The position numbers were made by a program, and so were the translations under genes. A DNA stretch of 45,099 nucleotides from Hyphomicrobiales bacterium (GTDB taxonomy: Bacteria; Pseudomonadota; Alphaproteobacteria; Rhizobiales; Devosiaceae), in contig JAMONS010000036.1 in assembly GCA_027065555.1 (NCBI GenBank), positions 1-45,099 of the forward strand. Direction: 5' to 3'. The notes beneath the pieces were generated by a model. That model worked only from the letters and a program-made list of their open reading frames with translations, was not told where the DNA came from and did not search any database. This document shows, one piece after another, positions 9,595 through 41,859 of this stretch. Every line of letters begins with the position of its first letter. Within the stretch, counting starts at the first letter, position 1.

Positions 9595-11160
9595 TTATAG
9601 TAAATGCACAATAGAGTTGGCATAATAATTTAGCAAATCTGTTTCTTGCCAGTTCGCACGATATTTATCGTCTTCTTTTTTTACTATATGGCGTAGGGTG
9701 AGCATACGCAAACCTACATCAATTAAATAATCATGATCATTGCGTGGTACATGAATATGCGCTCCGCTTTCTTCTAGTTTTGTGATTAGATTAAAGGTCT
9801 TTTGTTTTACCTCAAATAGGGAAAGTGGGCGTGCGCCCTCTTGCACAAATATTGTTGCAATTAGCGAGACGGGTAAAACAGGCACAGCTTTGCCAACCTC
9901 TTGCATTAGGCTTTGCCCTAAATTTTCAATTTCTTTGAAGCGCTGTTCTTCGCTCATTAAGCGCAAATCAAAAACTTCTTTATTCTTGTCGTCTTTATTC
10001 TTGTCGCCGTTGGTCGCTTCGCTCCCGTCCCCGACACCCCCGCCTTTCTTATCCTTGCCGCCGTTGGTCGCTACGCTTCCGTCCCCGGCACCCCCGCCGG
10101 TTGTTCTTTTTCCGTTGCTTATTTTTGCGCTCCTGCTGCTTAGGTATTTTCGCATTGAAACTGGTTTGCCAAACGACACACAGGCATAGCCATTACGAAA
10201 CCATTGTCCCTTAAAGGCTAGTGCTATTGAATGCCCGATAAAGCCAAATAGGATTTTTGGTGAGAAGCGAAATTTTGGTTTTTCTCCTTGTTTGCGTTTG
10301 GCGTTGGAGCTGAGCATTCTATCTTCAAGCACCCTGTCATAATTTAGACCGACTGGAACAAATACAATATCTTTGTCCGAGTTTGGATCAAAATCGCTTA
10401 CCATATATGAGAGCAAGCCAAATTTTGGCGGGCGTAATTTGCCATCCATTGAAAGGCCACCTTCGGGAAATATCGCCTGTGTTACCCCAGCTTCTGTTGC
10501 CATGTGCACATAACGGGCCAGCACTTTTCTATAAAGTGCATTTCCAGTTGATTGGCGGCGCACAAAATATGCCCCCATTGCTCGAATGAGGCTTTGTAAC
10601 CCCCAAATTTGCGCCCATTCACCCACCGCATAAGAAAGCGCAGAAGAAGTTGCCGCCATATAAGTTACTAAAACATAGTCCATGTTTGAGCGGTGGTTCA
10701 TTACAAAAACCACGCTAGAATTTTCATCAATTTCTTTTAATGCCTTCTCATCTGGGTTGCCTAAACGTACCCGATAGAGCATTTTTGAGATAGAGCGTGC
10801 TAGCCTCGTGCCTATCTTAAAATATGTGTAGTGCGAAAATGCTGGCACGACTTCATGTGCATAGGAGCGTGCTTTTTCCATTATTACTTCACGTGTTGAA
10901 CCGCTCTCTTTTGCTTGGTTTTCAATCGCCTTTATAACTTCTGGATCAAACATTAAAGCATCGATTAAGCCCTCTCTTTTTGTTAGCTTAAAGGGTTGGA
11001 TTTTTAGTGAAAGTTTTGAATTTAGTTTTTCAATGGCTTTATTGGCACGACGGCGAAAAAACCAGCGAACGGAAGGCGCAAGCAAACGATCAATTAGCCC
11101 AAAAAGTGCTAAAATTGCTGCTAGAACCACAAACCATATTGGTAGTGTAATTGTTCCCAT
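9595..11160 (-). CDS. Glycerol-3-phosphate acyltransferase (PlsB-like) with internal repeat insertion
   Basis: Membrane-associated acyltransferase that makes lysophosphatidate from glycerol-3-phosphate, the first step of phospholipid synthesis. An N-terminal membrane helix (residues 5-23) is followed by the acyltransferase domain with block I VMNHRSNMDYVL, the GAYFVRR segment and block III FPEGGLS. Block IV-like sequence is FVPVGLNYDRV. The C-terminal part (VPVLPVSLIATIF onward) is also typical. Between KYLSSR and FDLRLMSEEQR there is a Gly/Asp/Asn/Lys-rich insert of about 50 residues (about 344-393), made of two 18-residue repeats (GGGAGDGSVATNGGKDKK and GGGVGDGSEATNGDKNKD). These come from a GC-rich DNA repeat read in frame. 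The catalytic part is upstream and intact, so the enzyme is probably active with a flexible loop. Confidence 0.87.
   Translation of the reverse strand: MGTITLPIWFVVLAAILALFGLIDRLLAPSVRWFFRRRANKAIEKLNSKLSLKIQPFKLTKREGLIDALMFDPEVIKAIENQAKESGSTREVIMEKARSYAHEVVPAFSHYTYFKIGTRLARSISKMLYRVRLGNPDEKALKEIDENSSVVFVMNHRSNMDYVLVTYMAATSSALSYAVGEWAQIWGLQSLIRAMGAYFVRRQSTGNALYRKVLARYVHMATEAGVTQAIFPEGGLSMDGKLRPPKFGLLSYMVSDFDPNSDKDIVFVPVGLNYDRVLEDRMLSSNAKRKQGEKPKFRFSPKILFGFIGHSIALAFKGQWFRNGYACVSFGKPVSMRKYLSSRSAKISNGKRTTGGGAGDGSVATNGGKDKKGGGVGDGSEATNGDKNKDDKNKEVFDLRLMSEEQRFKEIENLGQSLMQEVGKAVPVLPVSLIATIFVQEGARPLSLFEVKQKTFNLITKLEESGAHIHVPRNDHDYLIDVGLRMLTLRHIVKKEDDKYRANWQETDLLNYYANSIVHLL
10000..10098. repeat. GC-rich tandem repeat inside the acyltransferase gene (2 units)
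   Basis: Two 45-base units, 10000-10044 and 10054-10098, start exactly 54 bases apart and differ at only a few positions. They are strikingly GC-rich against AT-rich surroundings. Since 54 is a multiple of three, the gene stays open and gains an 18-residue repeat. The first 21 bases of the second unit (10054-10074) recur exactly at 41642-41662, and its right end plus flank (10088-10120) recurs with few changes at 41734-41766. The sequence is therefore a dispersed element, not a repeat private to this gene. Confidence 0.85.
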
Positions 11161-41576: not shown

Positions 41577-41641
41577 AAAACAGCGTGCTTGATTGAAATG
41601 TAGGTATGTTAGATTTTGTTTCAAGGGTTGGCTCTTTTTTT

Positions 41642-41859
41642 CTTGCCGCCGTTGGTCGCTACATTTTCTCTTGCGTTCACGCCACGCAGGCTACCCGACC
41701 CCGCCTGTCCGCCGAAGCCTTGGCGTAGGCGGAACACCCCCGCCGTTTATTCTTTTTCCATGCTTACGCTGGTAGGTTTTTTCCGCTCACCACCCTACGC
41801 CCTTCGAGCTTCGGGAGGCATGCGCCGCTTGGGCTCTCTCCGCTCATGCCGCTTGGGCT
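41642..41859. repeat. Mosaic of GC-rich palindromic and direct repeats in the gap
   Basis: About 220 GC-rich bases in an AT-rich gap. From left to right: (a) 41642-41662 is identical over 21 bases to 10054-10074 in the acyltransferase gene. (b) 41708-41733 is a nested palindrome, TCCGCC-GAA-GCC-TT-GGC-GTA-GGCGGA. (c) 41734-41766 resembles 10088-10120, closing the copy started at (a), so (b) sits inside it. (d) GCCGCTTGGGCT occurs at 41824-41835 and again at 41848-41859, a 24-base period. No believable gene is present; the frames that stay open here have no family or ribosome site. Confidence 0.75.

Follow-up and report, generated by a model that had tools for sequence, protein, structure and literature searches.

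Short palindromic repeats lie in frame within conserved genes of a Hyphomicrobiales bacterium

How does a conserved acyltransferase gene come to carry a GC-rich repeat that lengthens its product and leaves the reading frame intact? This question is raised by the window considered here, a stretch of 45,099 nt that is contig C36 in the 2.06-Mb draft genome (139 contigs, 93% complete) of an AT-rich alphaproteobacterium. The gene (Table 1) encodes a PlsB-like protein with the Pfam domains Acyltransferase and GPAT_C. It had been described beforehand as an essential lipid gene, but this is doubtful, as the protein scores 154 bits with the curated PlsB model, for which the cut-off is 610, and PlsX is encoded in the same genome.

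The insert consists mainly of two GC-rich units of about 46 nt. As originally predicted, these are nearly identical (about 90%) and spaced 54 nt apart, and the frame is unbroken by the repeat, since both units lie within one minus-strand open frame. Most relatives lack this insert of about 50 residues: it is missing from 11 of the 13 orthologues compared, including two from the same genus, and is present, with differing contents, in two sister species. The idea that such repeats may offer a route to new surface loops is supported only indirectly, by an AlphaFold model in which residues 355-388 of the insert have a pLDDT below 50 and adjoin a confidently predicted core, the C-terminal part after them exceeding 90.

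Table 1. Positions in the window of the acyltransferase gene, its insert and the copies of the element.
Feature	Position	Strand	Basis or description
PlsB-like (GPAT/AGPAT superfamily) acyltransferase gene, insert host	9595..11160	-	single open frame, 521 codons
In-frame insert, residues 343-395 (53 aa)	9976..10134	-	missing in 11/13 aligned orthologues
Element unit 1	9999..10044	+	covariance model 75.2 bits; antisense reading GGGVGDGSEATNGDKNK
Element unit 2	10053..10098	+	covariance model 69.5 bits; antisense reading GGGAGDGSVATNGGKDK
Truncated third unit start (TTATTCTTGTCGTC)	9980..9994	+	repeat comparison and sequence
Degraded, mosaic element copy, intergenic, inner part enlarged	41641..41713	+	covariance model 19.4 bits
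Second palindromic module (CCTGTCCGCCGAAGCCTTGGCGTAGGCGGA) fused to element tail ACACCCCCGCC	41703..41744	+	sequence comparison

The units belong to a dispersed family. In a genome-wide search, the 13-base core GCCGTTGGTCGCT was found 50 times, while its reversed letters, a control that is independent of covariance-model training, did not occur at all. BLAST with the two-unit stretch gives 58 matches in the same genome, and a covariance model gives 59, grouped as about 46 sites; this last count is not independent, since the model was trained on 68 distinct units, some of them from the present genome. On the plus strand of the window, a unit reads TTG-YCGCC-[inner part]-CCCCG-RCA-CCCCCGCC, where the bracketed part is made up of a G and the inner hairpin (19-21 nt), and it has about 46 nt and a GC content of about 70%.

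Each unit folds into two nested hairpins, with a constant outer frame and an inner hairpin that is strongly variable and covarying. In the outer stem, TGYCG is paired with CGRCA, with C-G as the Y-R pair in 40 of the 68 units and T-A in 26. The commonest inner hairpin, GGTCGCTnnGCTCCC, has two central mismatches, and other units have perfect and unrelated inner stems, such as GGCCCC/GGGGCC, GCAACC/GGTTGC, GGCTCC/GGAGCC, and GGGCTG/CAGCCC. Both sides have changed in 8 of 11 pairs, with 52 covarying cells against 14.6 +/- 2.5 in shuffles; as this shuffle ignores kinship, the weight is placed on a slide control, where shifted partners yield at most 11 cells, and on the replacement of full arms.

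The window was also said to hold the same DNA 31 kb away, and there is indeed a real copy at that distance, but it is degraded and mosaic. After its 13-base core (41648-41660) come other modules and a second tail at 41734-41744. In general, element units are also found joined to other palindromic modules with the same end tail ACACCCCCGCC, and seven such module-tail joins occur in the genome stretches examined. The second module in the window, at 41703-41744, is TGTCCGCCGAAGCCTTGGCGTAGGCGGA, joined to the element tail.

The element is present in frame in at least 11 conserved genes, and for each of them relatives have an empty site. The hosts encode the PlsB-like acyltransferase, Der, FolC, Pgi, Xth, a phosphatase (Ser/Thr-type, identified from sequence motifs alone, with no NCBIfam match), MurL, a histidine kinase, which has gained about 90 residues from a stack of elements close to the end of its ATPase domain, PepN, an Aas-type acyl-ACP ligase, and malate synthase G. 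Further in-frame copies are found in the tail of an RhlE-type helicase, in an autotransporter, and in an ArsR-type regulator, which has a related insert in G003. All three antisense frames are in use: frame GGVGDGSEATNGDKNK in the PlsB-like protein and PepN; frame TAGVSGSGAKRPTATSIK in Der, FolC, Xth, MurL, and Aas; and frame RRGCRGREQSDQRRQ in Pgi and the phosphatase.

This use of different frames bears on whether the inserts might simply be expanded low-complexity linkers, produced by slippage within each gene. Local expansion does happen, as seen from tandem units with a spacing of 54 nt in the PlsB-like gene, 51 nt in the ArsR gene, and 50-53 nt in arrays of other genera. Nevertheless, identical DNA is present in unrelated genes and in intergenic regions, in three reading frames, which rules out slippage as the sole explanation and leaves this account with hardly any likelihood. 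An equally slim chance is given to removal of the element from the mRNA, or its skipping during translation, as in a small intron or bypassing element that leaves the proteins unchanged. The units do fold into stable hairpins and sit in conserved enzymes, but every insert observed is in frame and free of stop codons, which would be needless if it were removed (although the hosts were found via open frames), and no curated Rfam covariance model, those of intron and ribozyme families included, matches the element.

The orientation of the copies is strongly biased. All verified genic copies are antisense to the plus strand of the window, apart from the one in malate synthase G, which is sense and truncated, and with all open reading frames counted, antisense copies outnumber sense ones by 13 to 2 (binomial p 0.007); these tallies, like those of the frames, are biased towards survivors, as locating the hosts via open frames misses broken genes. 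Hydropathy values of -0.5 to -2.9 mark the antisense frames as polar, whereas two of the three sense frames are hydrophobic, and thus the orientation bias fits a selective filter. All six frames are open in 76% of genic units, 53% of other units, and 39% of dinucleotide-shuffled ones; selection for open frames was discarded as evidence for coding because stop-freeness is only moderately above the shuffles.

Some candidates were not retained as genic. A supposed sense copy at C131:590 matches a transporter sequence by chance, with one mismatch, and is absent from the covariance-model list, and a sense copy in an IS3-like open reading frame (C50:2427) has no Pfam match and was kept off the verified list. 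The copies of PurA, PlsX, and a HAD-type protein were left uncounted as well, since they are positioned at the gene start or ahead of it. As a separate observation, copies lie directly before the starts of der (C58:3325-3550), purA (C14:2512-2557), and plsX (C58:37235-37280), where they might affect translation. Another copy (C123:3797-3842) directly follows the 3′ end of an apparent tRNA gene, and copies in G002 and G003 have similar flanks.

Comparison with the sister species G004 is possible for 10 of the host genes, malate synthase G having been left out because the G004 contig ends there. The insert is common to both species in the PlsB-like protein, FolC, the kinase, PepN, and Aas, and it is missing from G004 in Der, Pgi, Xth, the phosphatase, and MurL. 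Since outgroups are devoid of the inserts, those that are not shared represent gains, and the absence of 5 of the 10 from a sister species indicates that the family moved recently. Even at shared sites, modules differ between the species in four cases: in the PlsB-like gene one unit is common and the other is replaced by different modules; Aas has extra modules in G004; in PepN the flanks agree closely and the inner hairpin differs; and the kinase also carries differing modules. The FolC insert is nearly unchanged.

This retention of the outer frame with replacement of the inner hairpin or modules, together with the quite different hairpins that this frame encloses in different genera and in a pair of viral contigs, could reflect an element with a constant outer frame and an actively exchanged inner hairpin. 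With two sequences per site, replacement is indistinguishable from fast divergence, and active exchange is put forward tentatively, as a possibility on the unlikely side. If a dedicated mechanism carries out the exchange, the element would act as a hairpin cassette that continually rewrites short stretches of conserved proteins. To our knowledge, replacement of the inner hairpin at shared sites has not been described for REPs.

The element is patchily distributed. Among 61 genomes, BLAST finds it in 14 (the present one included), from genera g1, g2, g6, and g12 of the host's family, three of which are genera other than its own, and finds none in 24 other families nor in the congener G001. A covariance-model search over 397 genomes of the order gives matches in 8, four of them from the same family; elsewhere, copies are single or few in number and have other hairpins within the frame, and two of the weakest matches look like chance. 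L316 and L318, from other families of the order, have single frame copies with unrelated hairpins. In a class-wide draw of 385 alphaproteobacterial genomes, the 384 besides this one all lacked the strict frame pattern; as the draw may have omitted other element-bearing genera, this argues only against close copies in distant groups.

Such patchiness is relevant to another explanation, in which the element is a functional regulatory hairpin of RNA or DNA, for instance a terminator, an mRNA stabiliser, or a protein-binding site, and the genic copies are accidental. The strong covariation and the many intergenic copies, some by the end of a tRNA gene or just before the starts of purA and plsX, would agree with this. 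However, a mobile palindrome would equally be expected to conserve its hairpin, and a regulatory role sits poorly with absence by BLAST from a congener and 24 other families, with high turnover between sister species, and with a replaceable inner hairpin. A regulatory origin is consequently considered improbable.

Some further occurrences are of interest in themselves. Plasmids and GenBank phages gave no match to the element. Two viral contigs (L336:1098-1139 and L337:3909-3950) each have, at the 3′ end of an open reading frame, a copy of the element frame; one of these reading frames is a Toprim-type primase, and phages may be a vehicle of the element. In genus g12, uvrB contains 1-2 units in an N-terminal extension in three species (L103, L105, L106), with differing hairpins. 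In G003, the C-terminus of an ABC-transporter ATPase is formed by three tandem units (L100), and an open reading frame of G015 with type I restriction specificity domains contains a unit in its N-terminal part (L091).

Taken with the empty sites and the turnover, the family is best read as one of short, non-autonomous, mobile palindromic repeats, with a probability of roughly 85%. Copies would colonise new sites, probably through an enzyme acting in trans, or through a hairpin-dependent replication error, and after arrival they would multiply locally as tandem or mosaic stacks. Insertion in frame into a tolerant loop or tail would be survivable because the units are short, have about 70% GC, and are often free of stop codons. 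Purifying selection would then leave mostly those copies oriented to encode a polar peptide rich in Gly, Ser, Asn, and Lys, and the effect on the proteins would presumably be neutral or mildly costly. Target-site duplication shows at best a weak excess (mean of 5.86 against 5.65 +/- 0.09, with 8 of 300 shuffles as high).

Which enzyme could act in trans leads to the REP-associated tyrosine transposases (RAYT). REPs are likewise short hairpin repeats, sometimes intragenic, which the dozens of hairpin copies described here resemble, and the congener G002 has a Y1 transposase gene. Nevertheless, in a search for PF01797, which covered the Y1 family only, 13 of the 14 element-bearing genomes had no match, the present genome among them, and the GTAG tag is not seen at the hairpin foot in the aligned units. 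Mobilisation by a REP/RAYT system was therefore rejected as very unlikely.

Mobile palindromes that behave in this way are known. In Rickettsia (RPE) and Wolbachia, palindromic repeats lie in frame in many unrelated conserved genes and are apparently tolerated, with sites in relatives empty or differently filled, and the mobilising enzyme is unknown (PMC2229807, PMC3767692, PMC10969869). RPEs are typified by in-frame insertion into numerous conserved genes (PMC2229807, PMC3767692), and different groups have been reported at the same site for RPE-4/6/7 (PMC3767692). The likeness to RPE behaviour proposed in the original prediction is borne out: here too there is a dispersed palindrome with a conserved fold (59 covariance-model matches and covariation), in frame in unrelated conserved genes (11) whose sites are empty in relatives. 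By contrast, RPEs have about 100-150 bp and the core unit has about 46 nt, the host and its relatives are Hyphomicrobiales and not Rickettsiales, and three coding frames are used. Thus, the claim that the family differs from RPEs holds as regards length, and the sequences are probably different as well.

REPs with CGTC or GTAG tags also occur inside genes, in free-living species as well (PMC3733652). The CGTC REPs, which are mostly from alphaproteobacteria and include RPE-4 and RPE-6, are short palindromes in dozens of copies with no linked transposase and with intragenic copies; REP clusters code for up to 82 aa, and uvrB is a REP target in R. conorii (PMC3733652). The present family shares with them short palindromes in dozens of copies, intragenic sites, uvrB among its targets, and the lack of a Y1 transposase, the only family searched. 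It differs in that most units have CGTT or CCAC before the hairpin and a minority CGTC; in the inner stem, which has 6 bp, or 4 bp around two mismatches, and not 8-9 bp starting with A-T pairs; in the bases that follow, mostly GACC, GTCC, or TTCC instead of a CCA tail; and in having two nested stems instead of one. Intragenic MITEs (ERIC/RU, Correia) are small non-autonomous repeats that can likewise fuse in frame with genes (PMC2229807), but the outermost ends of the present element are without clear terminal inverted repeats, and its target-site duplication shows no more than the weak excess given above. In effect, the element acts like RPEs, with which it was compared in length, fold and behaviour, and like intragenic REPs, and fits the definition of neither. 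As judged from the open-access literature, the phenomenon is known, and the novelty lies in the family itself, in a frame of two stems whose inner hairpin is replaceable, and in the use of three frames.

Coding palindromes inserted in frame are best known from Rickettsia and Wolbachia, obligate intracellular bacteria in which relaxed selection might account for them. The present family is apparently separate, outside Rickettsiales, and recently active; a free-living, marine lifestyle is suggested for its host, and other members of the host's bacterial family include genomes of 3-4 Mb. As predicted from the genes, the element would add stretches of extra amino acids to enzymes. Since the same enzymes have filled sites in some sister species and empty ones in others, the spread of coding palindromes, their cost, and their contribution to protein evolution become testable.
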